A stretch of 45,353 bases of DNA from Blastocatellia bacterium (GTDB lineage: Bacteria > Acidobacteriota > Blastocatellia > Pyrinomonadales > Pyrinomonadaceae). The position numbers and the translations under genes were made by a program. The stretch covers positions 1 to 45,353 of the forward strand of contig JACCVY010000020.1 in NCBI GenBank assembly GCA_013697915.1, read 5' to 3'. Positions 7,038 to 23,230 of the stretch are shown here, piece by piece. The notes below the pieces were generated by a model. It worked only from the letters and a program-made list of their open reading frames with translations, had not been told where the DNA came from and made no database searches. The first letter of the stretch is position 1, and every line of letters begins with the position of its first letter.

Positions 7038-7043
7038 GCCCAC

Positions 7044-7440
7044 CTCGCTCTTCCTGAATTGTGTGAATGCAGTCTAGCGAAACAAACGAACCGATGCCAG
7101 TGGGCTAAACGGCATTTGCGCTGCTTCGGCATTGCCGCCTGAGTTGGCTTCGCGGCGGTGACCCCACCGTAAATGTGCCTTTTACATTTTTGGGTTATGC
7201 CCTTGGTGCGGGCTTTGGCTCAATAAATCCGAATGGCTAAGCCCGGACCAGGGGCATAGCCCCGGAATAATCTGGGTGCTCTCGGCGGGGCATAGCCACC
7301 GCCGCACATCAGACGGCAAAGCCGAAACTGACGTGGCCCATGTCATTTGAGGCAAAATCTGCTGAGGTTACTAACAAGATTGTCTTAGCGTCGGTTGACG
7401 CTCGACAGCCGCGTACTCCCCAGCTACACTGACACTTCGT
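7044..7440. other. Intergenic region with degenerate palindromes
   Basis: About 400 nt without a credible gene. It contains short G+C-rich inverted motifs, for example GGGGCATAGCCCC near 7251-7263 and repeated GGCATAGCC elements around 7250-7300, resembling scattered intergenic palindromes rather than coding sequence. It marks the left border of the metal-handling island. Confidence 0.4.
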
Positions 7441-7935
7441 ATGCCGTTCTCGCTTTTAAAAATGGTTCGTGTGGTTCTGGCGGTGGCCCTCGCTTTTTGG
7501 GTCGCCGGTGCGGGCTGTCTGCTGGGCTGCGAAGGAATGATGACGGTGGCAGCGAGCAGCAGCGCGGGACATGAGTCGTCAAGCAATCTGAACCTGGTTG
7601 TTTCAGGCGAAGCCTGTGCGTCAGCGAAATCGCACGACTGTTGCGCCAAACGAAATCACCGGGTCCAGCCAAAAGCGCAATCAGACGAAAGACAAGCAGC
7701 GACCCTGGTCGAAACTGACCCGGCATCCTCCGCCATGTCCGATTGTCCGCTGGCGATGAGCCGCACGGTAGTCGTTGCAAAGAGTGGCGCGCGGGAAACA
7801 AGTTCCGCGACGACGGTCCCTAACGCAAACTTACCTACCCAGAATCTTCTTGAACAACTGGCCCCGCTTGTTGCTCAGGTGCGCTTGCCGAATCGCGGGC
7901 ACACTTACCTTCGCTGCTGTTCCTTTCTAATCTAA
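7441..7935 (+). CDS. Small exported Cys-rich protein
   Basis: 164 residues with a hydrophobic N-terminal segment (about 6-30) containing two Cys (GAGCLLGCEG). A Ser/Ala-rich region with a DCCAKR motif follows, and the C-terminus is distinctive, ending TYLRCCSFLI. No database family comes to mind. Its architecture (signal sequence, a CC motif in the middle, a terminal Tyr-x-Arg...L-[IL]-I tail) is shared with the protein at 16311. Both flank metal genes, which suggests an envelope metal-binding role by inference only. It is the first gene of the island, and no clear ribosome binding site is seen before its ATG. Confidence 0.6.
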   Translation: MPFSLLKMVRVVLAVALAFWVAGAGCLLGCEGMMTVAASSSAGHESSSNLNLVVSGEACASAKSHDCCAKRNHRVQPKAQSDERQAATLVETDPASSAMSDCPLAMSRTVVVAKSGARETSSATTVPNANLPTQNLLEQLAPLVAQVRLPNRGHTYLRCCSFLI

Positions 7936-8489: not shown

Positions 8490-8498
8490 AAGAAAGCT

Positions 8499-8532
8499 GT
8501 GGGCGTTTCGGATCTTAGATCGAAACGCCCAC
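8499..8532 (+). promoter_or_regulatory. Strong intergenic hairpin
   Basis: A perfect 12-bp stem, GTGGGCGTTTCG (8499-8510) with CGAAACGCCCAC (8521-8532), extended by ATC/GAT inside with one bulged G. It starts 10 nt after the previous stop codon and ends 23 nt before the next ATG. No U-run follows, so it is not a standard intrinsic terminator. It may stabilise or partly attenuate the transcript between the two metal-protein genes. Confidence 0.6.
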
Positions 8533-8555
8533 AAAGCATTCGTGGGAAGAAGATT

Positions 8556-10448
8556 ATGAATAAGACGTTTTTAAGATATAAGCATCTGCTGTTAACAATG
8601 GCGCTGGCTCTTACTTTTCCACTGAGTGAGATCGCAATTGCCCAACATGAGGGCCATGACATGTCCAACATGCCGGGCATGAGCAAACCCAAACCAAAGT
8701 CCAAAGCGAAGGCAAGAAGAAAGGTGTCCGCGAGAAAGCGGAAACCCGCAGCGCGCAGGATGCAGCCGGCAAAGAAGCATGACATGAGCAACATGCCGGG
8801 CATGCAGATGCCGGCGAGTTCACCCTCACCCAATCCGCAAGCGTCGCGGCATCAGATGGACATGAACATGCCGGGCATGCAGATGCCGGCGAGTTCAGCA
8901 TCACCCAATCCGCAAGCGTCGCCTCACCAAATGGACATGAACATGCCGGGCATGCAAATGCCGGCCAGTTCACCTTCTCCAAATCCACAAGCGTCGTCGC
9001 ATCAGATGGACATGAACATGCCGATGTCGACGGCGAGTCCATCATCGGGAGCAACTCATACGCACGCAGAGCAACCCGGCGCGATGGGCAACATGGACAT
9101 GGGTGTTCCGAAGAAGGGCCAGCCTGGAAGCGACTCAATGAAGGACATGGAAGGAATGCCGGGCATGGGGTCGATGAACATGGGGCCCTTGATGGTTATG
9201 AACGGCAATGATATGGCGATACGCGTTGGTTCGAGCGATACAAATCTTATGTCGATGGGCGCGCTGGGTTCAGGAACTACTTGGCAGCCGGCTTCCGGGC
9301 CAATGCATATGATCCATAAGCAGGCGAGTGACTGGCTGTTGATGTTTCACTACAACGCGGTCGTCGGCGTCAATTCGCAGGGTGGAGCAAGAGGTGTGAC
9401 CAAGTTGGAGTCCTCAAACTGGTTCATGCCGATGGCGTATCACAAGTTCGGCAAGGGAACTTTGCAACTACGCGGGATGTTCAGCTTTGAGCCTTTTACG
9501 TTTCCGCCCGGCGGCTCTCCGCTGCTATTTCAAACCGGCGAGACCTACAAAGGTCAGCCGCTAATTGATAAGCAGCATCCGCACGATTTGTTTATGGAAT
9601 TGTCTGCGCAGTACACGCATCCGTTGGGTGAGCGTGGAACCTGGTTCACCTATTTTGGTTATCCCGGCGAACCCGCGTTGGGACCGGTTGCGTTCATGCA
9701 TCGCATGTCCGCGTCCGAGAATCCCTCAGCGACGCTGGCGCATCACCTCCAGGATTCAACGCACATCTCTTTTGGCGTGTTGACCACTGGCTTTACCTAT
9801 CGCTGGATCAAACTGGAGGGTTCGGTCTTTAACGGACGTGAGCCGGATGAAAATCGTTATAACTTCGATGCGCACAAATGGAACTCGCGCGCGGCGCGCA
9901 TCTCGATCATGCCCAATCAGAACTGGGTCATACAAACGTCCTACGGTTTCCTGCGGAGTCCTGAGGCTTCGGAACCCGACACAGACATCCGACGCGCAAC
10001 GGCTTCGGTGCAATACAACAGACCGCTCAAGCGCGGCAACTGGGCATCGGCTTTTATTTGGGGCCGCAATCACACCAGCAGTCCAGACGAGACGCATAAC
10101 CTGAACGGCTATACGTTTGAGTCCACCGTTAATTTTCTTGATAAGAACTATCTCTACACCCGTCTGGAATTGGTGGACAAGAACGAGCTGCTGCGCGCTG
10201 TGGATCGGGCGCGTTTAGGAATTACCGACGATCATCCCTCGTTCCGCATCGGCGCCTACACCTTCGGCAGTGCGCGCGATTTGTTTACCAGCGAAAAGAT
10301 ATCGCTGGCCGTTGGCAGCGATCTTACTTTCTATTCAAAACCGGCGGTGCTCGATCAGCTTTATGGCAACAATCCCGTTTCGTGGAAGCTGTTCTTCCGC
10401 ATTCGCCCAGGCAAGATGGATATGGGCAGCATGCATGGTAAGCACTAA
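8556..10448 (+). CDS. Met/His-rich outer-membrane-type beta-barrel protein
   Basis: 630 residues from the ATG just after the hairpin. An upstream in-frame GTG lies inside the hairpin stem and is unlikely. Signal peptide (about 1-29, ending SEIAIAQ), then HEGHDMSNMPGM and a Lys/Arg-rich stretch, then tandem 25-residue units HQMDMNMPGMQMPASS.. and further Met-rich blocks to about residue 220. The remaining 400 residues alternate aromatic and polar residues with many short strands, typical of an outer membrane barrel (for example FHYNAVVGVNSQGG and NGYTFESTVNF). The Met/His head would bind Cu(I)/Ag(I) in the periplasm or at the surface. The barrel family is not one I can name; CopB/PcoB-like is possible but unproven. 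Confidence 0.75.
   Translation: MNKTFLRYKHLLLTMALALTFPLSEIAIAQHEGHDMSNMPGMSKPKPKSKAKARRKVSARKRKPAARRMQPAKKHDMSNMPGMQMPASSPSPNPQASRHQMDMNMPGMQMPASSASPNPQASPHQMDMNMPGMQMPASSPSPNPQASSHQMDMNMPMSTASPSSGATHTHAEQPGAMGNMDMGVPKKGQPGSDSMKDMEGMPGMGSMNMGPLMVMNGNDMAIRVGSSDTNLMSMGALGSGTTWQPASGPMHMIHKQASDWLLMFHYNAVVGVNSQGGARGVTKLESSNWFMPMAYHKFGKGTLQLRGMFSFEPFTFPPGGSPLLFQTGETYKGQPLIDKQHPHDLFMELSAQYTHPLGERGTWFTYFGYPGEPALGPVAFMHRMSASENPSATLAHHLQDSTHISFGVLTTGFTYRWIKLEGSVFNGREPDENRYNFDAHKWNSRAARISIMPNQNWVIQTSYGFLRSPEASEPDTDIRRATASVQYNRPLKRGNWASAFIWGRNHTSSPDETHNLNGYTFESTVNFLDKNYLYTRLELVDKNELLRAVDRARLGITDDHPSFRIGAYTFGSARDLFTSEKISLAVGSDLTFYSKPAVLDQLYGNNPVSWKLFFRIRPGKMDMGSMHGKH
8778..9026 (+). repeat. Coding tandem repeat, 75-bp units
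   Basis: Units begin at 8778 (72 bp), 8850 (75 bp), 8925 (75 bp) and 9000 (partial, 27 bp). Each encodes H-x-M-D-M-N-M-P-G-M-Q-M-P plus a Ser/Pro/Asn/Gln spacer. The DNA units are close copies, so copy number probably varies between strains. Confidence 0.9.
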
Positions 10449-10476
10449 CTCTTAAGTCGAAGAAGGAGAATTGAAT

Positions 10477-10989
10477 ATGGTCCAAAGTAAGTTACACAGG
10501 GTGTTGGCGGTTCTTGTTTTTGTTTCGAGCGCATTGTTCGCAACCGAAGTATTAGGCCAAACAAATGACGAAGCTGCCTTGCGCGATGTGTTACTGCGCA
10601 GCGCCTCGAGCTTCGCGAAAAATGATCTGGCCGAGGCCAGGAAGGTTTGGGCGACCGATGAATCGCTAACAATCTTTGAAAGCGGTCACGCAAACTACGG
10701 CTGGGCCGATTATCGGGATAATCATCTGGTTCCGGAAATGGGTGAGATGAAGAACACGAAGTATGGCTTTAGCGACATCCGTATTCACCTTGCGGGCAAG
10801 ACCGCCTGGGCCACCTTCAAATACAGCATTGAGGCGGACGTAAAAGAAAACGGAAAGCCGCGGCACGTCGACGGCGCCGGTTTGGGCACTGCGATTCTTG
10901 AAAAACGCACTGATGGCTGGCGCATTGTGCACTGGCACTCGAGCGCGCCTCGTCGCGCACCGGCCGCGGCCCCGGTGAAAAAGCCCTGA
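10477..10989 (+). CDS. Exported SnoaL/DUF4440-like (NTF2-fold) protein
   Basis: 170 residues. The ATG is chosen over an upstream TTG because AAGGAG lies 8 nt before the ATG but only 2 nt before the TTG. A signal peptide (hydrophobic 8-25, ending EVLGQ) precedes a single NTF2-like domain of the DUF4440/SgcJ type: helix AALRDVLLRSASSFAKND, then a cone-shaped sheet ending TDGWRIVHWHSS. Proteins of this fold bind small molecules and are often non-catalytic. It sits between the Met-rich barrel and the CDF genes, 28 nt after the former, so it is probably co-transcribed in the metal island. Confidence 0.8.
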   Translation: MVQSKLHRVLAVLVFVSSALFATEVLGQTNDEAALRDVLLRSASSFAKNDLAEARKVWATDESLTIFESGHANYGWADYRDNHLVPEMGEMKNTKYGFSDIRIHLAGKTAWATFKYSIEADVKENGKPRHVDGAGLGTAILEKRTDGWRIVHWHSSAPRRAPAAAPVKKP

Positions 10990-10992
10990 TGC

Positions 10993-11971
10993 ATGGAACA
11001 AAAATCCCCAAAACTGAAAACAAAAGCGTGCGCCATGGGTCATAGCCATGATCACGACGCATCACCGACTGGGCGGCGGTTGCTCTTATCAGTCGGCATT
11101 ACTCTCGCATTTGTGATTGGCGAGGCTGCAGCCGGCTACTTCTCAAACTCTCTATCGTTGCTATCGGACGCGGGGCACAACTTTCGCTGACGCTCTGGCC
11201 CTCGTTTTGTCCTGGTACGCCATTTGGATTGCGCAAAAGCCCTCAACGGCACAGCGGACCTTTGGCTATCACCGCGTTGGCATCATCGCCGCTTTAGTTA
11301 ATGCTGTCTCTCTCGTGGTGATTGCGCTGCTCATTTTCTGGGAAGCATTCTCTCGGCTCCGTCACCCTGAGCCCGTGCAAAGCACGCCGATGATCGTGGT
11401 TGCGCTGATAGCGATCCTGATGAACACGGTGATCAGTTTTTGGTTACGGAGCGCGGCCAAGAAGGACTTGAATGTACGCAGCGCTTACATGCACATGCTC
11501 GGAGACGCCATCTCAGCGGCGGGCGTGGTTGCAGCCGGGGTCGTCGTTGCTTTTACCGGAGCATCAATTGCCGACCCAATCGTTTCTATCTTGATTGGCA
11601 TCCTAATCCTGTGGAGCTCGTGGGGAATTCTTAAAGAATCGGTTAACGTCCTCCTGGAAGCGATTCCGGAAGGGATGGACATGGAGCAGGTAGAGCGGAC
11701 AATAGGCGACGTGCGTGGCGTGCGAGCAGTTCACGATCTACACGTCTGGACGGTGGGGTCGGGAATGGTTTGTGGTAGTTGTCATATTATGGTTGATGAA
11801 CAGAGCGTGCGCAGTGGCGAAAACGTCCTGCGGGCTGTGACCGAAAAACTTGAGCATCGCTTCGGTATCGCCCATACCACGATCCAGGTCGAGGTTGAGG
11901 GCTGCGAGCCAAATGATATGTACTGCATAAAGAGAGCGGCGGAGCGTGCAGGTGAGCACGATCAGCATTAG
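10993..11971 (+). pseudogene. CDF cation efflux (CzcD-like) gene with a frameshift
   Basis: Two frames together encode one cation diffusion facilitator. Frame one gives the His-rich start MGHSHDHD and the first membrane segments up to SLLSDAGHNF, then hits TGA at 11188-11190. The remainder continues in the +1 frame from ADALALVLSWYAI to the C-terminal cytoplasmic domain and the end, FGYHRVGIIAALVNA included. Removing one C after the TTT at about 11184-11187 restores the family sequence GHNFADALAL. Either the gene is a recent pseudogene, the base is a sequencing error, or a +1 slip occurs. The rest of both frames is undamaged. Start may be 10993 or the ATG at 11035; the latter gives the typical CDF N-terminus. 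Confidence 0.85.
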
Positions 11972-12017
11972 TTCCCGTCGGCAGCTCTCGATGAACTAAC
12001 CGACAGGTAGAGAGATC

Positions 12018-13124
12018 ATGTCTGAGCGTAAAGATCCACACGAAGGGCACTCGCACCCCAGCGGGCACGCGCATGGAGAACACCGCGCCCATGAAGGTGA
12101 ACACTCACCTGAGAAGACTGCTAATACGCACAGCGACCATGAACACGATCACGGAGGCGGGTCTCACGGACACGTACACGGCACGATTGACCCGTCTATT
12201 ACAGCGAGTGATAGAGGTTTGTGGGCGGTTAAGTGGTCTTTCGTCGGGCTGTTTTTTACCACACTCATCCAGATTGTAATTTTCTATTTTTCGGGGAGTA
12301 TCGCACTCCTCGCTGACGCCATACACAATTTAGGGGATGCTGCGACCGCCATCCCGCTTGGGATCGCTTTCATTTTGGCGAAGCGAAAACCGAGCAAACG
12401 ATTTACCTACGGCTACGGGCGCGTTGAAGATTTGGCAGGCTTAGCTGTTGTGCTCACTATCCTGGCGAGCGCGGCCTTTGCCGGTTATGAATCCATCAAC
12501 CGATTCTTTCACCATAAACCCGTTGGCTACTTGTGGGCTGTGGCGATCGGCTCAATCGTCGGCTTTATTGGGAACGAAAGCGTCGCCGTGTTTCGGATCA
12601 AGGTTGGCAAGGAAATGGGCAGTGCCGCCCTAATCGCTGACGGTTACCACGCGCGCACGGATGGGATTGTCAGTCTCGCTGTCCTCGTTAGTGCTGCCGG
12701 TGTTTACTTAGGCTATCCGCTGGCGGATCCGATTATCGGCATTTTGATGACTATCCTTATTCTAAGGATCGTTTGGGAGTCTGCTGCCGCAGTTTTCACG
12801 CGCATCCTCGACGGCGTTGACCCGGAGGTGCCGGACAAGATTCGGGAGCAGGCGAAACAAACGAGAGGAGTGGAAGATGTTAGTGAGGTGCGGGTCCGCT
12901 GGCTGGGCCACAGGATGCACGCCGAACTTAACCTCGCGGTGAATCAGCGCTTATCAGTTGAAGACGGTCACAATATTGCCAACCAGGTGCGGCACGACCT
13001 TCTGCACAATCTCCAGTTTCTTTCAGGCGTCACCATTCATGTTGACCCGACTAATGCCTCGGGCGAAAAACACCACGAAATCGCCGAGCATACGCACGAC
13101 GGCGAGCCTGCGCACTCACACTAA
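12018..13124 (+). CDS. CDF-family divalent cation efflux transporter, His-rich N-terminus
   Basis: 368 residues. The first 55 residues are loaded with His (GHSHPSGHAHGEH, HSDHEHDHGGG), followed by six predicted membrane helices. The metal-site motifs LADAIHNLGDA (H-x-x-x-D) in TM2 and ADGYHARTDG (H-x-x-x-D) in TM5 identify a proton-coupled Zn/Co/Cd exporter. A cytoplasmic ferredoxin-like domain and a second His-rich tail (HTHDGEPAHSH) follow. A GGTAGAGAG ribosome binding site precedes the ATG. It directly follows the frameshifted CDF, so it may be the working copy of that function. Confidence 0.93.
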   Translation: MSERKDPHEGHSHPSGHAHGEHRAHEGEHSPEKTANTHSDHEHDHGGGSHGHVHGTIDPSITASDRGLWAVKWSFVGLFFTTLIQIVIFYFSGSIALLADAIHNLGDAATAIPLGIAFILAKRKPSKRFTYGYGRVEDLAGLAVVLTILASAAFAGYESINRFFHHKPVGYLWAVAIGSIVGFIGNESVAVFRIKVGKEMGSAALIADGYHARTDGIVSLAVLVSAAGVYLGYPLADPIIGILMTILILRIVWESAAAVFTRILDGVDPEVPDKIREQAKQTRGVEDVSEVRVRWLGHRMHAELNLAVNQRLSVEDGHNIANQVRHDLLHNLQFLSGVTIHVDPTNASGEKHHEIAEHTHDGEPAHSH

Positions 13125-13171
13125 TATTCATATCCAAAAAAAGGCAGAGGGCCGAGAGTTAATTAGAAACA

Positions 13172-13828
13172 ATGAGTCAAATCAATCAGATTGTAGATGT
13201 GAACCGCGCTCAACTTGTCGGTCGAGGCCGCAAGCTTGAGTATTTCACGATTGCCTACAACAGCCTCGAAGGACTAATCGCTATCATCGCTGGCCTGATG
13301 GCCGGTAGCATTGCGCTGGTCGGTTTTGGGTTCGATAGCCTTATCGAAGTCACGTCTGGTGCGGCCCTGGTTTGGCGTCTCCATTCTGATGCAGACGAAT
13401 CACAACGGGAACGGGTCGAAGCAATCACGCTTCGGATTGTGGGTGTCTGTTTCCTTGTGCTGGCTGCTTATGTCAGCTACGACTCAATCAAGTCACTGAT
13501 ATGGCGCGAAGAGCCGCACGAGAGCATTCCCGGTATTATTCTGGCTATCGCTTCGCTGATCGTCATGCCACTACTTGTTCGCGCCAAGAGGAAGGTGGCC
13601 CGGGGCATCAAGAGTCGCGCCCTCATGGCTGACTCAAAACAAACCGAGCTTTGTACTTATCTTTCGGCCATTCTGCTTGCCGGTCTCTTACTGAATGCGC
13701 TGCTTGGCTGGTGGTGGGCCGATCCGGTTGCCGCGCTTGTCATGGTTCCAATAATCATCAAGGAGGGTATCGAGGGCCTCCGGGGCGAGAGCTGCTGTGA
13801 CGACGGCTGCGAGCCATCTGCGTCCTGA
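13172..13828 (+). CDS. CDF-superfamily (TMEM163-like) cation transporter
   Basis: 218 residues with about six membrane helices and no His-rich loop. The TM2 motif is GFGFDSLIEVTSG and the TM5 motif ADSKQTELCTY, as in the shorter CDF relatives in which D-x-x-x-E and D-x-x-x-E replace the usual H-x-x-x-D pairs. The C-terminus carries CCDDGCEPSAS, a Cys cluster suited to soft metals. It lies 47 nt after the His-rich CDF and immediately before the MerR operator, which points to regulation with heavy metals. Substrate could be Zn, Pb or Hg; the sequence does not decide. Confidence 0.8.
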   Translation: MSQINQIVDVNRAQLVGRGRKLEYFTIAYNSLEGLIAIIAGLMAGSIALVGFGFDSLIEVTSGAALVWRLHSDADESQRERVEAITLRIVGVCFLVLAAYVSYDSIKSLIWREEPHESIPGIILAIASLIVMPLLVRAKRKVARGIKSRALMADSKQTELCTYLSAILLAGLLLNALLGWWWADPVAALVMVPIIIKEGIEGLRGESCCDDGCEPSAS

Positions 13829-13922: not shown

Positions 13923-13954
13923 TTGACTGTGTACCTAAGTACAGGGTGTAGAGT
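13923..13954 (+). promoter_or_regulatory. MerR-type promoter/operator with 20-bp spacer
   Basis: A -35 element TTGACT (13923-13928) and a -10 element TAGAGT (13949-13954) are separated by 20 bp instead of 17, the hallmark of promoters activated by DNA-distorting MerR regulators. The spacer carries the dyad GTAC-CTAA-GTAC (13931-13942) centred between the elements, closely similar to mer operators, which contain GTAC-x4-GTAC. Transcription would start about 7 nt after the -10, that is within 1-3 nt of the merR ATG at 13963, so the message would be nearly leaderless. Confidence 0.85.
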
Positions 13955-13962
13955 GTCCACAG

Positions 13963-14385
13963 ATGAATAAGACCGGGCAGATTAGTACGAGTGAGTTAGC
14001 GAAACGCGGGGGCGTAAATCTCGAAACCATTCGTTATTACGAACGCACGGGACTGCTGGCAAAGCCGCCACGTTCCGCGGCTGGCTATAGACAGTTTTCA
14101 CCGGAGAGTGTGCGTCGTGTTCGATTCATCAAGCGGGCACAGGAGCTGGGCTTCTCGCTAAAGGAGATCAAGGAACTCCTCGCTTTGCGGATTGCGCCAG
14201 GCAGCACGCGAGCGGATGTGCGCAAGCGGGCGGAGGCAAAGATTGCCGACATCGAAGGGAAGATCGAACACTTGCGCGCGATGAAGAAAACTCTCGTTCG
14301 GCTGAGCGAAACCTGTTGTGGCAGTGGGCCGGCTAGCGACTGCCCGATACTTGAAAGTTTAAGTTTAGATGAGAAGGAGAAATAG
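13963..14385 (+). CDS. MerR-family heavy-metal-responsive regulator
   Basis: 140 residues. The N-terminal winged helix-turn-helix (STSELAKRGGVNLETIRYYER) and wing SAAGYRQFS are typical, followed by the dimerisation helix and a C-terminal metal loop C118-C119-G-S-G-P-A-S-D-C127. This CCG...C loop resembles ZntR and MerR, but the first metal-binding Cys found in both (MerR C82) is absent here; the matching region reads PGSTRADV. So the site may use only the C-terminal loop and differ in metal choice. The gene is transcribed from its own operator and ends 2 nt before the thioredoxin-like gene, so it is self-regulated. Hg(II), Zn or Pb sensing are all possible; the neighbouring MerB-like gene favours mercury. 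Confidence 0.9.
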   Translation: MNKTGQISTSELAKRGGVNLETIRYYERTGLLAKPPRSAAGYRQFSPESVRRVRFIKRAQELGFSLKEIKELLALRIAPGSTRADVRKRAEAKIADIEGKIEHLRAMKKTLVRLSETCCGSGPASDCPILESLSLDEKEK

Positions 14386-14387
14386 TT

Positions 14388-14663
14388 ATGGCAAAGAAAC
14401 AGAAACGTCAAATCGAAATCTTTAGCGCTGGTTGCTCGAACTGCAAGGAGACAATTGAGTTAGTTCAAAGTCTCGCTTGCGACTCGTGCGACATCAAAGT
14501 CCACGACATGAACGCGCGCGGTGTGGCTGCGAAAGCCAGGAAGTACGGCGTGCAAAGGGTGCCGGCAATCGTAATCGACGGGAAGCTCGCGGCCTGCTGC
14601 GCCAATCGCGGCGTCGACGCAGAGGTGCTTCGCTCAGCCGGTGTGGGCGCACAAATAGCCTAG
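14388..14663 (+). CDS. Thioredoxin/glutaredoxin-like small protein
   Basis: 91 residues of thioredoxin fold: IEIFSAGCSNCKET with the active pair C16-S-N-C19, a second pair C31-D-S-C34, a cis-Pro loop VQRVPAIVIDGK and a C-terminal CCAN. No signal peptide, so cytoplasmic. The AAGGAG ribosome binding site lies inside the end of merR and the genes are 2 nt apart, so it is in the MerR-controlled transcript. It probably exchanges thiols with, or carries, soft metal ions such as Hg(II); the paired Cys are suited to that. The exact partner is not known. Confidence 0.85.
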   Translation: MAKKQKRQIEIFSAGCSNCKETIELVQSLACDSCDIKVHDMNARGVAAKARKYGVQRVPAIVIDGKLAACCANRGVDAEVLRSAGVGAQIA

Positions 14664-14822: not shown

Positions 14823-15329
14823 ATGCGAGTACTGGTACTAATTTGTTTCCTGTTTGCCCCCGCGATTGCTCAGCAGCCTGTTCCTCTTAGGGAGTTTTCG
14901 CTACCCAAGCTTGATGGGCAAACGCTGCGTTCAGATGATCTCAAGGACCAAATCGTGGTGCTGGATTTCTGGGCCACCTGGTGCGAAAACTGCATCAGTG
15001 AAATTCCCGAATTCAACAAGCTGGAAACGGATTATTCGGCGCGCGGAGTTAGCGTGATCGGCTTGGCGGTACAGTCCGGGTGGGCCTCCGACATTCAGAA
15101 GTTTGTTAAGCAGTACAATATGCGTTACACCATACTGGTTGGGAATGACGATACGGTTTCTGATTTCGGGGTCATTAGTTTCCCCAATACTTACGTAGTT
15201 GGTCCCGGTTGGAAACTGTACAAGAAATATTCGGGCGTGTCTGAGACGAAAGCGACAGACATTCGACGAGACATCGAGACTCTCTTGAACGCGAAGCACT
15301 CAACGAAGAGGAGCGAAGGTCACCAATGA
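14823..15329 (+). CDS. Exported TlpA-like thioredoxin, coupled to the MerB-like selenoprotein
   Basis: 168 residues: signal peptide (about 1-17, ending APAIAQ), then an AhpC/TSA-type thioredoxin fold with FWATWC54-E-N-C57, the strand VSVIGLAVQS and the cis-Pro segment SFPNTYVV. GGAAGGA precedes the ATG. The stop codon overlaps the ATG of the next gene (ATGA, 15326-15329), which makes translational coupling likely. By inference it keeps the next protein's active-site selenols reduced outside the cytoplasm, since resolving a selenenylsulfide or diselenide needs such a reductant. This partnership is not proven. Confidence 0.88.
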   Translation: MRVLVLICFLFAPAIAQQPVPLREFSLPKLDGQTLRSDDLKDQIVVLDFWATWCENCISEIPEFNKLETDYSARGVSVIGLAVQSGWASDIQKFVKQYNMRYTILVGNDDTVSDFGVISFPNTYVVGPGWKLYKKYSGVSETKATDIRRDIETLLNAKHSTKRSEGHQ

Positions 15330-16189
15330 AGACTAAACCTTGGCTGCTGCCGTTGATGACGCTATTGCTGCTCGTAACCAACGCGAGCGCTGCAAAAGAT
15401 CAGGCTCAGCTCAATTCTCAAGAGCAAAAGGTCATCGATTACCTTGTGGAGGATTGGGGTGAAGACTATGGCGTCACCAGTGTCGATATCGCGATGAACG
15501 CGCTCAAAGTTGCGCCGTCAGACGAGACCCGTTTCCGCATCGGCAACTACATCAAAGCGCATCCGGAGCTGCATGAAGTCATTCGGCGCTGGGGTTGGGT
15601 AACGCTTGTGCTTACTCCCGATGAGAAATTGATCGCCCGCGCACTCATCAATGCCCAACGCGATAGTAGACCGGCACCATCGGTGTCTGAGTTAGCGAAG
15701 GCACTGTTCATTAAGGAATCTGGCATTAAGCGCGGGTTGGCAATGCTTGGTCGATACGAGATTTTGAAGAAAGACAGCAAGGCTGGCGGCGCAGGATATG
15801 CCGTGATGCCGCGCTATATAAAATGGGAGCCGCGCCTGGACTTTGTTTTTCATAAAGTGAGCCTGGACAACGGGCGGCAGTTCAACACGAATTGAGCGCT
15901 CGACTCGATGCTGCTGGTCAGCAGCAAATTCGCGAATGAGCGAGTCACGATCGAGGATTCCTCGCCCGAGAGCATGGCGCGTATTCGCCTCACCTTTGAT
16001 AAGGGCAAAGTCATATCTGAGGAACCAGCATCGACTGTTTTCTTTCTCGGCGGTGGTTGAGGGGTCATCAACTTCTTCAGGTCTGAAGAAGCACTAAATC
16101 AGTGGCTGATTCGATACCCCGAACTTAAGGACAAACCGCACGGAACAGTCGCAGACGCCTTAGAGAAAATTAAGAAGCGGAAGGAATAG
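15326..16189 (+). CDS. MerB-like organomercurial lyase with two selenocysteines (UGA at 15893 and 16058)
   Basis: 287 residues if both in-frame TGA codons are read as selenocysteine (U190 and U245); the stop is TAG. A signal peptide (about 1-23, ending NASA-A) precedes an extra helical segment (about 25-112), then a winged-helix-like part (116-170) and the MerB catalytic core. The first TGA gives N-U190-A-L-D193, matching MerB C96-A-L-D99. The second gives G-U245-G-V-I-N-F-F, matching C159-C-H-V-H-F-F, and is followed by an S-E-E-A-L-N-Q-W-L alkylmercury lyase tail. Spacing is 55 residues (63 in MerB). MerB cleaves C-Hg bonds by protonolysis with these three residues. Each TGA has a SECIS-like hairpin. 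AAGG lies 8 nt before the ATG. Conventional annotation would stop at residue 189. MerB's third Cys (C117) is not seen. Confidence 0.88.
15893..15926 (+). promoter_or_regulatory. Bacterial SECIS element 1 with its UGA
   Basis: UGA at 15893-15895; 20 nt later a GGTC apical loop (15916-15919) closed by a perfect 7-bp stem (TGCTGCT 15909-15915 with AGCAGCA 15920-15926). Bacterial SECIS hairpins recruit SelB-Sec-tRNA. The E. coli fdhF element has the same GGUC loop at 18 nt from its UGA. Confidence 0.85.
16058..16091 (+). promoter_or_regulatory. Bacterial SECIS element 2 with its UGA
   Basis: UGA at 16058-16060; 19 nt later a GGTC loop (16080-16083) closed by a perfect 8-bp stem (CTTCTTCA 16072-16079 with TGAAGAAG 16084-16091). 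Same loop and nearly the same spacing as element 1 but unrelated stem sequence, so the shape rather than the primary sequence is conserved, as expected for SECIS. Confidence 0.85.
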
Positions 16190-17285: not shown

Positions 17286-20200
17286 ATGATCAACCGGCTC
17301 ATTGAGCTGAGTCTGCGTAACCGCGGGCTCGTCGTTGTGCTCTATCTTGCTCTTGCGTTATGGGGCTATTGGGCACTAACGCGTACGCCGATCGACGCGA
17401 TACCCGATCTCTCAGAGAATCAGGTCATAGTTTTCACCGACTGGACCGGTCGCTCGCCACAAGAGGTCGAGGATCAAGTCACCTATCCCCTCGTCACGAA
17501 CCTGCAAGGTTTGGCGGGTGTGCGTGTCGTGCGTGCGAGTTCGGCGTTCGGGTTCTCGATGATCAATGTGATCTTCGAGGACAACATCGATCTCTATTTC
17601 GCAAGGACGCGGGTCCTCGAGCGATTGAACCTGGTCACGAAGCAACTCCCTGAAGGTGTTGTACCCACGCTCGGCCCCGACGCGACCGGTGTGGGCCAGG
17701 TTTTCTGGTACACGCTTGAATCCGATCAGATGAATCCGCGCGATCTGCGCACGTTGCAGGACTGGTTTGTACGTTACCAGCTGAACTCAGTGCCGGGCGT
17801 GGCGGAGGTGGCTTCAGTCGGCGGTTACGTGCAGCAGTATCAGATCGATGTCGATCCGAACAAGCTGCGAGCTTACAACATCCCTCTCTCGACGATTGTT
17901 CAGTCAGTTCAGCGTTCGAACAACAACGTCGGCGGCAATGTCGTTGAACAGGCAGGTCAGTGGGCCGTCGTTCGCGGGATTGGACTAATCCAGTCGACTG
18001 ATGATGTTGCAAATATTGTTATCGGCTCAGCAAATGGCACGGCGATCTACGTGCGCAACGTCGCGGATGTGAAGCTGGGCAATGCGTTTCGTACCGGTGT
18101 GCTCGATAAGAACGGCAAAGAAGCTGTGGGCGGTGTTGTTATTGCTCGTTACGGCGTCAACACGCTCGATGTAATCCAGAGCGTGAAGCAAAGGATTGAA
18201 GCCATCAAGTCCGGCTTGCCGAAAGGAGTCCAGATCGTTCCTTTCTATGATCGTACGCAACTCATCGAACGAGCCACGCACACCCTAAAACGAGCGCTGA
18301 TCGAAGAATTAATTCTGGTGACGCTGGCGCACATCCTGTTTCTCGCGCACTTCCGCTCCATTCTGATTGTAACTCTGCCGTTGCCGCTTGCGGTGCTTAC
18401 GTCATTCCTCTTCATGTACTACATGGGCATCAGTTCGAATCTGATGTCACTCGCAGGAATTGCGATCGCTATTGGTGTGCTGGTAGACGCCGGCATTGTT
18501 GTTACTGAGAACGCCTTTCGCTTTCTGGAAAAGCGAAAGGTCGATCCCAAAGACCGGAAGAAAGTCTGGGAAACGGTCCGTGATTCGACCAAGCTGGTAG
18601 GGCGACCGGTCTTCTTCTCAATGGCAATCATCATCCTGGCCTTCGTTCCGGTCTTCTCGCTCACCGGTCAGGAAGGAAAACTGTTTCACCCGCTCGCCTT
18701 CACAAAGACGTTCGCCATGTTTGGCGCAACGATCATGGCTCTCACGCTGGTACCCGTCCTCTGCACCTATCTCCTGGCAGGAAAGTTTCACTCCGAGCAG
18801 TCAAATCCCGTAATGCGTTTTCTGCAAGTCATCTATCGGCCGGCGCTACTGCTGGCTTTGCGCCATCGTCTCATTACGGTCTCAATCGCTTTAGTGCTGT
18901 TCACTGGCGCGATCATTCTGGCGACTGGAATTGGCAAAGAGTTCATGCCTCCGCTTAACGAGGGCGACGTCATGTACATGCCGATAACCGACCCCGCAAT
19001 CGCGGTCGATGAAGCTCTTAGAATGCTCAGTAAGGAAGATGAGATCTTGAAGAGTTTTCCTGAAGTCGAATCGAGCGTGGGCAAGTCCGGACGCGCAGAC
19101 ACCTCGACCGATCCAGCTCCCGTAAACATGACCGAAACAATCGTTCATTTGAAGCCCATCGAACAATGGCGAGCCGGAATGACGCGGGAGAAGCTCATCT
19201 CTGAAATGAATGAAAAACTGACGATGCCCGGTATCACAAACATCTGGACGCAGCCGATTCAGAACCGCATCGACATGCTTTCCACGGGAATCCGCTCGCA
19301 GGTAGGCCTGAAGATTTTCGGCAATGACTTAAAGGAACTCGAAGAACTGTCAAGACGAGTGGCTGAAGTAGTGAAGACAGTGCCCGGCGCGGTCGACGTC
19401 TATCCCGAGCAGATCAGCGGCGCGCCTTACATCGACATTCATATCAACAGACCGGCCGCAGCGCGGTATGGAATAGACGTTGGCACGATCAACGATGCCA
19501 TCGAAACAGGGATTGGCGAAACGAACCTCACCGTCACTGTCGAAGGGCGGCGACGTTTTCCGGTGCGCGTGCGTTACGCGCAACAGTATCGCAGCAGTGC
19601 CGCTGCCCTGGGCGAAATTCCAATCGCTTCACCATCTGGCGCATCCATTCCGTTGGCGCAGCTAGCGGAAATTCGGAGCGTCGAAGGACCAACGATGATC
19701 TCCAGCGAGAACGGACTGCTGCGGGGAACTGTGTTACTCAATGTGCGCGGTCGCGACGTAGGCAGCTTCGTTGACGAGGCCAAGCCGAAGCTCGCGAGCC
19801 AGGTGCAACTGCCGCCCGGTTATTACATGGACTGGAGTGGTCAATATGAGAACCAGCAGCGCGCCCGGCAGCGCCTGTTGATTGTAATTCCCATAGTGTT
19901 GGTCATCATCTTTGGCCTGCTCTACCTGACCTATAACTCCGTTTTAGAAGCCGCGCATGTCTTGCTTGCTGTCCCGTTCGCCTTAACCGGCGGTGTCTAC
20001 CTGCTTTGGGCGCTTGGCTACAACTTCTCAGTAGCCGTCTGGGTGGGATTCATCGCGCTGTTTGGCACTGCGGTGCAGACCGGGGTTGTGATGGTTATCT
20101 ATCTCGAGGAGGCGGTGGAAAGAAAACGACAGGAAGTCGGCGTACTAACGCGCAAGACTTTGATGGAAGCAGTGACGGAAGGTGCATTACTTCGTTTGCG

Positions 20201-20507
20201 CCCCAAGGTCATGACAGTCTCGACCGTTGTCGCCGGTTTGCTTCCGATCATGTGGAGCACGAGCGCGGGTTCGGAAGTAATGAAGCCGCTTGCCACGCCT
20301 GTACTAGGTGGGATGGTCTCAAGTCTCTTACATGTGTTGATTGTGACGCCGGTGATCTTCTTCTGGCTGCGTGAACGGCAGCTAAAGAAACAAGGCGCAA
20401 CGGACGCCAGCGGTGAAATGGCTGCGGAGTTCGATATTGAGACCAATGCAAGCCAATTGGACTCCTCCCCAGCAGGCAATAAGGAAGAGGGTATCAATCA
20501 TGAATAA
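17286..20507 (+). CDS. cusA: CusA-type heavy-metal RND efflux pump (Cu(I)/Ag(I))
   Basis: 1073 residues, the usual HME-RND size, with twelve membrane helices in two halves and two large periplasmic loops. Signature segments include [20 protein letters not shown] and, in TM4, the proton-relay region [14 protein letters not shown]. Three Met residues that form the CusA copper site are all present with matching spacing: M565 (in MYMP), M615 (in PVNM) and M664 (in RIDML), corresponding to CusA M573, M623 and M672. That favours Cu(I)/Ag(I) over Zn/Co (CzcA). AAGGAG precedes the ATG. The end overlaps the TolC-like gene by 8 nt, so the pump operon is tightly coupled. Confidence 0.93.
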
Positions 20508-21915
20508 GCATTACAGCAGTCAGGGAATTATCGTAAGCGCCTTAGCGATAGTCCTGTCAAACGCTTCCGCAGGCATTGCGCAATCACTAGCAGCCCGGAC
20601 TGAAACCAGAGCCGCCGTAATAGAGCCGGAAGCAAATCCGGCCATCAGTTCGCCTGTTGCAAGGTATTCCGATCCACAGACCGGCATTACTGCCGATCAA
20701 GTCATCGCATATGCGCTTGAACACAACGGAGAATTGCAGGCTGCGCGCAAAGAGATCGACGTGGCTGCCGCGCTCGTCAAACAAGCAGGACTGCGAGCGA
20801 ATCCGAAAGTTGATGCCAGCGTGGCGAAAACCATCACAGGCATGGACAACACGGTGACGATTCAGGGAATGCTGCCGCTGGAACTTGGCGGCCGTCGCGG
20901 GGCGCGCATCAAGGTCGCCGAACGCGAGTTGGAAATGCGCCGTCAGGATGTTGCCAACCGGGAACGTCTTCTCGCGGCCGAAGTCCGAGCAAAGTTTGGC
21001 GAGGCAATCGCCGCCATTCTCAAGCTTGGCCTCGATCAAGACCTGATTGATACCAGTCAACGTGGATACAGGCTGGTCGTGGCTAGAGTAAATGAAGGAG
21101 GAACAGCACCGCTTGAACAGAATATGGTGCTGGTTGAATTGAATCGTTTGCGTTCAATGCGCGAGATCGCCGAAGGGAAAACTCAGATAGTGATGCTGGA
21201 GCTACGCAATCTTATCGGCATGACGCCCGAAGAGGCACTGCGGTTGCGCGGAGATTTTGATGACGTAATTGCTCCACTAACCCCACTGGCCGAGGCGACT
21301 GAACGAGCGGTAGCCGAGCGACCTGACTTACGACTGGCAAAGACATTTGAGAGTCTCGCGGAAGCTCGCATAGACGAAGCTCGGGCCGAAGGGAGACTCG
21401 ATGCCAGCGTGAGTGCCGGTTACCAGCGGATGAATTCCAGCTTCCCACTGAACGGCATAAATGACGCTGGTCAACTAAGACCGATCCAGAGCAGCTTTAA
21501 CTATCTTACCTTCGGAGTTTCTTTGGATCTGCCCGTGCGAAACAAGAACCAGGGAGCAATTGAGGCGGCGATAGCGGAAGTGGAGGCGACAAAACGCCGC
21601 CGAGAGTTTACCGAACTAACCGTCAGGCGTGAGGTTGCATCGGCTTATGCCCAATACAACAGTTCAGCGCGAGCGGCGGAGATCTTTCGCGTGGGAGTTA
21701 AGGATCAAGCCAACGCTAACCTAAATGTAGTCAGACAAACGTACGAGCTGGGATCGAAAACTTTGATTGACTACCTCGGCGAGCAACGTCGTTATATTGA
21801 ACTGCAAAACTCTTATATCGACACGCTGCTGAATACTTACAAGGCGCGTGTAGAGGTAGAACGCGCCGCTGGCTCTTCGTCTGTTACTAAACCCGAGGCA
21901 CAAACCCATGACTGA
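20500..21915 (+). CDS. cusC: CusC/TolC-type outer membrane efflux channel
   Basis: 471 residues. The ATG overlaps the cusA stop codon region; an alternative start further upstream would run inside cusA and lack the signal peptide ([16 protein letters not shown]). Two outer-membrane-efflux-protein repeats of long helices and short strands are visible, for example [20 protein letters not shown] in the first and [19 protein letters not shown] in the second. It forms the trimeric exit duct for the Cus pump. Overlaps cusB by 8 nt. Confidence 0.9.
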
Positions 21916-23230
21916 ACCAAACGAGAAAATACGCGACGAACGCATGGAGAGCACCGGACCTGATGTCGCGGCGACGAGCGAAAACCGTCGGGCCCGCACG
22001 AAGAGCGCGATCTTGATCGCGATTGTTGCAGTCGTTGCGATTGTCGGAGTGGCATTTGTGGTATGGCTGCTGAAGCCAAGCGGTAACGCCGGTCGTCCTG
22101 TGCCCGCGCCCCGCTCGATATCCATCGAGCCAACCAATCAAAGCAACACCGGCGCGCCCGGCGAGCAAACGTTGACGATAAACCCGGAAGAGGCGCAGCG
22201 AGCGGGGATCAAGATCGAAACGGTCGGCGAGCGAGTGTCTGCTGAGGTTGGTGGACAACAAACCACCGGTGTAGTGCAGTCAAACTCCTATCGCGAAACT
22301 CCCGTGATGTCTCTCGTCGGAGGAATTGTGCGTACCGTTGGGCCGGAACTCGGCCAGAATGTGCGCAAAGGCCAAACGATTGCCGTAGTGTCCAGTAACG
22401 ATCTTGCTGATGCTCAAACGAAATATCTCGCCGCATTTGCCGAGTTAGAAGAGCACCACAAGCATCATGCGCGCACTGAGAAGTTGGTAGCGATCGGCGC
22501 GGCCAGCCGCGAGGAACTGGAGCTGGCAACCAGCAAGTTGAAAGCGGCGGAATCGGAAGTAGCTAACTTGCGCCAACGTCTTTTGCTTCTAGGTTTGAGT
22601 TCTCAACGTGTCAGTGCGCTTCGCTCTAGCTCACAGGTTAGTTCTGAAGTGAGCTTGCCGGCACCTGCTTCCGGAACTGTGACCAGTCGCACCGTCAACT
22701 CGGGTGAGGTCATCGAAGCCAACAAAGAACTACTGCGCGTTACCGACTTATCTAGCGTGTGGGTCGTCGCCCAAGTCTACGAGAAAGACCTCGGCAAGAT
22801 TCACATTGGGAGCGGCGCGAGCGTTACAACTGAGGCTTACCCAGGCCGTGTCTTTCGTGGCCGAGTATCCTACGTTGATCCGGCAATCAATCCCCAAACA
22901 CGAACCGCACAAGCACGCATTGAATTAGCCAACCCTGGGCAGCAACTTAAGATTGGCATGTACGTGAACGTGACCTTCGGCGCCCTCGGAGGCGGGGAGA
23001 ATATAGCGCCAACAATTCCGGCCACGGCAGTGCAGAACTTTAATAATCAACAGGTGGTCTTTGTCGCGACTAATGAGCCAAGTGTCTTCATCATGCGGCC
23101 CGTACGCCTTTCATCGGAAACGAATGGCATCTATCAAGTGCTGGAAGGACTAAACGTGGGCGACCGCATCGTAACGAACGGCAGTTTTCTTTTGCGCGCT
23201 GAGTGGCTGAAAATGAATCCAACCAAGTGA
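21908..23230 (+). CDS. cusB: CusB-type periplasmic adaptor (membrane fusion protein)
   Basis: 440 residues. One N-terminal membrane helix (about 34-56) anchors the protein. Then come the lipoyl/barrel-sandwich half GGIVRTVGPELGQNVRKGQ, a helical hairpin (FAELEEHHKHHARTEKLVAI..., about 175-230), the second lipoyl half PAPASGTVTSRTVNSGE, a beta-barrel and the membrane-proximal domain. It joins cusA and cusC. The Met residues of E. coli CusB's N-terminal metal site are not evident. The ATG overlaps the end of cusC. Confidence 0.9.
   Translation: MTEPNEKIRDERMESTGPDVAATSENRRARTKSAILIAIVAVVAIVGVAFVVWLLKPSGNAGRPVPAPRSISIEPTNQSNTGAPGEQTLTINPEEAQRAGIKIETVGERVSAEVGGQQTTGVVQSNSYRETPVMSLVGGIVRTVGPELGQNVRKGQTIAVVSSNDLADAQTKYLAAFAELEEHHKHHARTEKLVAIGAASREELELATSKLKAAESEVANLRQRLLLLGLSSQRVSALRSSSQVSSEVSLPAPASGTVTSRTVNSGEVIEANKELLRVTDLSSVWVVAQVYEKDLGKIHIGSGASVTTEAYPGRVFRGRVSYVDPAINPQTRTAQARIELANPGQQLKIGMYVNVTFGALGGGENIAPTIPATAVQNFNNQQVVFVATNEPSVFIMRPVRLSSETNGIYQVLEGLNVGDRIVTNGSFLLRAEWLKMNPTK

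Follow-up and report, generated by a model that had tools for sequence, protein, structure and literature searches.

A MerB-like gene with UGA codons at both mercury-binding positions: a predicted double-selenocysteine protein in Acidobacteriota

Does a MerB-like frame crossed by two UGA codons encode a full-length selenoprotein, and what might such a protein do? Within the 45,353-nucleotide stretch of DNA from a soil acidobacterium analysed here (the window; the double-UGA gene, its codons and hairpins, and the cluster genes and promoter ahead of it lie on the forward strand), positions 15326–16189 hold a single 288-codon frame, from ATG 15326 to TAG 16187–16189. Translated with TGA as selenocysteine (Sec, U), it yields 287 residues, with Sec at codons 190 (U190, 15893–15895) and 245 (U245, 16058–16060), and it holds no Cys codon. 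A preliminary description of this DNA had proposed that these TGA triplets occupy the two catalytic Cys positions of the organomercurial lyase MerB in an otherwise intact frame. The frame is indeed intact, U190 and U245 being its only internal stops.

To place the two codons on MerB, we aligned a profile of nine family sequences (the window protein and eight homologues) with the PDB sequences of MerB (1s6l, 3f2g) and MerB2 (5c17). U190 fell on C96, U245 on C159 and D193 on D99, as the preliminary description had it for both TGA codons and for the Asp behind the first; the register of C159, the first Cys of FCC, was fixed by the C160S mutant entry 3f2g. C96, D99 and C159 make up the strictly conserved catalytic set of MerB (PMC8261052), the mechanism of which has been described (PMC4525700). 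The best profile match among PDB sequences was 5c17 (E = 6.4e-11). Pfam MerB (PF03243) matched residues 176–268 of the window protein at 47.6 bits (cut-off 27), and the family was also over its cut-off there in a scan of the genome (31.5 bits).

The predicted fold pointed the same way. In an AlphaFold2 model (mean pLDDT 81), the structure superposed on MerB 3f0o with Z = 11.1 (2.2 Å over 120 residues) and on 5c17 with Z = 8.8. The top eight structure matches were all MerB (Z 8.3–11.1, r.m.s.d. 2.1–2.6 Å; Foldseek was also used), the sole family with high scores; NosL reached Z = 5.1. Residues 95–167 of the model resemble a winged helix (LexA, Z = 5.3), as in the N-terminal domain of MerB, and residues ~25–90 are modelled as an extra helical part on the N-terminal side.

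Pfam, the catalytic columns and the fold thus uphold the earlier MerB-like assignment, but canonical MerB it is not: the protein has N-terminal additions, its gene lies in a TlpA- and MerR-linked cluster, and the NCBIfam MerB models gave only ~22 bits against cut-offs of 193–200. The model for SaoL (NF040728) likewise gave 21.2 bits against 140, and scores so far under both cut-offs indicate that the double-UGA group is a separate branch. Against MerB proper (PF03243; 1s6l, 3f0o, 3f2g), the window protein shares the catalytic-domain fold, the catalytic Asp and both Hg-binding residues in the same columns, whereas it has Sec for both Cys, no third Cys (C117), a signal-peptide-like N terminus, an extra N-terminal region and a TlpA partner. 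MerB2 (5c17), the nearest solved structure by sequence profile, differs in that it has Cys in both columns, Ser in place of Asp99 and no extra N-terminal region. Of the traits of MerB sensu stricto, Asp at position 99 is met, D193 being invariant in nine of nine members; Cys at 96 and 159 is not, all nine having UGA (Sec) columns there.

The eight homologues come from other acidobacterial assemblies and range from 73% down to 27% identity (L054–L057, L065–L068); four are named records (Centralia_MAG_6, Pyrinomonadaceae MGR_bin51, MAG56 and Blastocatellia MAG-252). In all nine members, in-frame TGA occurs at the two columns and only there, and residues unrelated to Cys or Sec, which would have refuted the proposal, were not seen at either column in the eight homologues. 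A MAFFT alignment of the nine sequences had 38 invariant residues, including U190, D193 and U245. Where computable, dN/dS in the segments after each TGA was 0.08–0.28, which shows selection at the protein level downstream of both UGA codons.

These data bear on whether translation yields only a 189-residue product, cut off by the first UGA, or whether the gene is a decaying pseudogene. Standard translation would stop at codon 190, and decay does occur in this family: one genome (G475, contig C184, L058–L060, ~11031–11416) has, besides an intact copy, a truly decayed extra double-UGA copy with frame changes. We nevertheless consider truncation or decay of the window gene very improbable. Purifying selection extends past both UGA codons, both codons and their hairpins (below) are kept in nine members, and the MerB core would be lost from a truncated product; the pseudogene explanation was rejected on the selection after both UGA codons and the retained UGA pair. 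Chance or assembly error was rejected as well, since nine members from separate assemblies have the same two TGA and no others, in line with the earlier argument that two chance nonsense hits at exactly these codons are unlikely.

No Cys form of the window subfamily was found in its own phylum, its own class or the classes of genomes G001 and G246; apart from fragments of the decayed copy, all subfamily search hits in those taxa were two-TGA genes. The Sec/Cys pairing, with UGA at both columns in the nine members and Cys at both in ordinary MerB, consequently depends on the MerB family at large. The nine exported-type members formed one group, with support 100/100, in a tree of 38 MerB domains; with ~160 columns, the tree did not settle the number of origins of the double-UGA state. 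Relatives were not found in viral contigs (two scans), plasmids or phages.

If the UGA codons are read as Sec, each would be expected to be followed by a bacterial SECIS hairpin. The hairpins claimed earlier are both present. Hairpin 1 (15909–15926) has a 7-bp stem and a GGUC loop and lies 16 nt from the first base of its UGA; hairpin 2 (16072–16091) carries the same loop on an 8-bp stem, at a distance of 14 nt from the first base of its UGA. Both sites meet the bacterial selenoprotein criterion of a hairpin just 3' of the UGA with a conserved apical GU. Across the nine sequences, hairpin 1 had 100% standard pairs, with three pairs changed on both sides (compensatory), and hairpin 2 had 93%, with two compensatory pairs. 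The covariation score of either hairpin was reached by none of 500 shuffles, and pairing was lost in both when the partner was shifted by 1–3 columns. Among the 1,548 TGA triplets of the window (801 and 747 on the two strands), only these two had a GGUC-loop stem of at least 7 bp at the right distance, the next-best having a 5-bp stem.

We also derived a covariance model solely from C159-site UGAs in the other MerB classes. A single site of the window stood out with it, 16058 (24.9 bits, E = 1e-4; the runner-up had 9.5 bits, E = 1.2), and it recovered the matching second site in eight of eight homologues. This test is partly confounded by common protein sequence, and it did not recover the first UGA site. 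Rfam had no family matching either hairpin.

The preliminary description had named selA, selB, selC and selD as the genes to look for in the same genome. The host has selA (542 bits), selB (357 bits), selD (347 bits) and a tRNA-Sec with a TCA anticodon, a complete Sec machinery; selD itself has a TGA near its N terminus (SGUAAK). Another genome that carries a double-UGA gene, 78% complete (G479), had no selB over cut-off. Co-occurrence with selB is uninformative here, because most genomes of the phylum with Cys-only MerB also have selB.

Genome-wide reading of UGA as tryptophan or another amino acid would also leave the frame open, and beyond the open frame nothing speaks for it. Neighbouring genes use TGA as a normal stop: among 16 long genes of the window that were checked, it ends five, one of them the TlpA gene that overlaps the Sec gene. 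Trp is encoded by TGG, and the tRNA-Sec (TCA) is present. UGA as tryptophan was rejected on the stop and TGG usage, and we give reassignment in general almost no credence. Insertion of Sec by SelB at the two UGA codons, both of which have an in-frame SECIS hairpin of their own, is strongly supported, the presence of Sec in the protein being inferred. We conclude that the gene almost certainly encodes a MerB relative with Sec at both Hg-holding positions, with Sec insertion itself a prediction from the nucleotide sequence.

The double-UGA protein also appears to be destined for export. Its N terminus is signal-peptide-like (MKTKPWLLPLMTLLLLVTNASAA, 15326–15394), judged only by hydropathy and an Ala-x-Ala-like site. 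All nine members had a hydrophobic N terminus with a cleavage-like site, which the cytosolic MerB classes taken for comparison lacked (rule-based, with no dedicated predictor), and by the same hydropathy rule none of the nine met the MerB sensu stricto trait of being cytosolic without a signal peptide. Export is accordingly worded here as an inference.

The gene sits at the end of a small cluster. Directly upstream, a TlpA/ResA-like secreted thiol-disulfide protein with a WCENC motif (14823–15329) ends in a TGA that overlaps the ATG of the Sec gene (ATGA). It is preceded by a small thioredoxin-like protein (14388–14663; Thioredoxin_3, nearest the ArsE/MTH895 type but below cut-off) and by a MerR-family regulator (13963–14385; C-terminal end ETCCGSGPASDCPILESL), for which the best NCBIfam match, MerR, was below cut-off (128.1 bits against 150.85) and close to its score as CueR (124.7 bits). 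This regulator is without the mid-protein Cys found in the regulators of loci L069 and L070. Ahead of it, a mer-type promoter/operator (13923–13954) reads TTGACT-N2-GTACCTAAGTAC-N6-TAGAGT, with a dyad at 13931–13942 and a 20-nt spacer, which we take to be the form of the Tn501 mer operator. GTAC-N4-GTAC occurs once in the window, ahead of the regulator, with 0.16 expected.

The window cluster is flanked by metal-efflux genes (8499–13828 and 17286–23230). They comprise three of the cation-efflux (CDF) type, one for a Met/His-rich repeat protein and an RND set for heavy-metal efflux (CzcA-, outer-membrane- and adaptor-like).

In the homologous loci examined, the double-UGA gene has a TlpA-like gene next to it. 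The order in L075 is MerR, a MerTP-type fusion, a CopZ-like protein, a MerP-type–TlpA fusion and the double-UGA gene; in L073 it is MerT-like, CopZ-like, TlpA and the double-UGA gene. In L069–L071, a GTAC-N4-GTAC operator precedes the operon with the double-UGA gene, and a separate Cys-type MerB is close by. By locus pairs, three genomes encode such a separate Cys-type MerB near the double-UGA gene (L042/L067, L039/L068 and L045/L066).

Several of these loci have further peculiarities. The L075 fusion (8496–9206, reverse strand), directly upstream of the double-UGA gene, joins a MerP-type HMA domain to TlpA; a TGA replaces the first Cys of its GMTCxxC motif (GMTUxxC), with a GGUC hairpin after it. 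In L073, a possible selenoprotein with an SPTUTVC motif (~10419–11072, reverse strand, TGA at 10790), without an NCBIfam match, lies between the MerT-like and CopZ-like genes. Behind the operator in L069 (6528–8059), L070 (3099–4639) and L071 (6053–7614), the operon that contains TlpA and the double-UGA gene opens with an ECF-sigma-like gene and an anti-sigma-like gene.

The reading that we prefer for the window gene is an exported double-Sec MerB-type protein that cleaves organomercurials, has a TlpA partner and is under MerR control, to which we assign a probability of about 0.6. Sec190 and Sec245 would bind an organomercurial such as CH3Hg+ in the periplasm, Asp193 acting either as a proton relay or as the third ligand; the Hg–C bond would be split by protonolysis, as in MerB, and Hg(II) kept between the two selenolates. 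The co-encoded TlpA-like protein could keep the Sec pair reduced, or aid release of Hg(II) to other metal-handling proteins, and a MerR regulator at the mer-type operator would turn the cluster on, as inferred from sequence. Selone mimics of MerB cleave Hg–C faster than their sulfur (thione) analogues (PMC11639659), which makes two-selenolate chemistry plausible. Sec insertion, export, Hg–C cleavage, the role of TlpA and Hg-dependent control by MerR are all inferred. Extended to the family, the proposal is of organomercurial lyases that are exported, hold Hg through two selenolate ligands without need of a Cys and have a TlpA-type partner, a two-selenium chemistry outside the cytoplasm; for this wider claim we see the odds as even.

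Several points weigh against a lyase. There is no biochemical or mass-spectrometric evidence, the MerB fold includes non-lyase metal proteins (NosL), and the window MerR falls under the Hg-MerR cut-off and is without the Cys of the L069 and L070 regulators. The genome, 97% complete, yielded no MerA over cut-off either (top match 340 bits, with 454 required). The very tight Se–Hg bond could slow product release, giving a trap instead of a turnover enzyme. Such a protein, a periplasmic trap or carrier of Hg(II) or RHg+ passing Hg to TlpA, MerP or MerT-like partners, is a real though lesser possibility: the affinity of Se for Hg is very high (PMC11639659), homologous loci encode MerT, MerTP, CopZ-like and HMA-TlpA proteins, and where a Cys-type MerB is close by, as in the three genomes above, the Sec protein may have another role. 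However, a mere binding pair would not need the Asp that corresponds to MerB Asp99, and D193 is kept in every member.

It is also conceivable, if unlikely, that Hg is not the natural substrate and that another soft organometal or metalloid (organotin, organoarsenic, copper) is cleaved or bound, as proposed for SaoL. The setting among cation-efflux and RND metal-efflux genes would suit this, as would the near-equal scores of the window regulator as MerR and CueR. The mer-type GTAC-N4-GTAC operator, shared by the window and L069–L071, and the MerT and MerTP genes adjoining homologues argue for mercury instead.

A Sec-carrying MerB relative has a precedent. SaoL, a known MerB-like selenoprotein with a single Sec, belongs to the Sec-assisted organometallic (SAO) operon (PMC9312934, PMC13188914) and, like the window protein, is thought to act on organometals. 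It has one Sec in a CU motif (PMC13188914), whereas the window protein has two Sec and no Cys, and no SAO gene neighbours were seen. We found no published double-Sec MerB, in agreement with the preliminary description, which knew of none; a 2026 inventory (PMC13188914) gives one-Sec SaoL only, and a mention in the primary papers of Haft and co-workers is not excluded. The evidence supports the window protein as a previously undescribed exported double-Sec variant of the MerB kind. If the reading is true, a metal-detoxifying enzyme in which Sec takes both metal-ligand positions would offer a natural test of the contribution of selenium to Hg chemistry, and an exported double-Sec MerB suggests that organomercury demethylation is possible outside the cytoplasm.

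Among 396 sampled Acidobacteriota genomes, 29 matched the MerB domain, and in many of the matches a catalytic position is occupied by UGA. Standard annotation cuts such genes short at the UGA, so that exported double-Sec lyases, if real, would have escaped MerB surveys. One such survey gives MerA for Acidobacteria, its table apparently without MerB for the phylum (PMC8261052); with MerB matches in 29 genomes, methylmercury breakdown in soils may be underestimated.

Three MerB states occur in Acidobacteriota: Cys/Cys, Cys/UGA (site C159) and UGA/UGA. Of the Cys/UGA MerBs, 14 were analysed, and all had a GT-containing hairpin loop at the same offset, GGTC in nearly all. These single-UGA proteins share the UGA at the C159 column and the GGUC hairpin with the window protein, but have Cys at C96, form a separate clade and, in the one checked, have no signal-peptide-like N terminus. 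One is encoded in the window genome itself, as a second MerB (L001, contig C154, 1285–1974), with Cys at C96, TGA at C159 and a 9-bp GGUC hairpin.

The UGA/UGA state comprises two well-separated groups, one of the exported type, to which the window protein belongs, and one apparently cytosolic. The latter (L046–L049 and L076, ~7040–7760) is present in five genomes and has the motifs UAED and YUxxxxFFWSEEHA. In G203 (L079, 1746–6953 and ~7540–7925), the cytosolic double-UGA MerB gene has within a few kilobases both what looks like selA and an additional selB, which is over cut-off at 282.6 bits.
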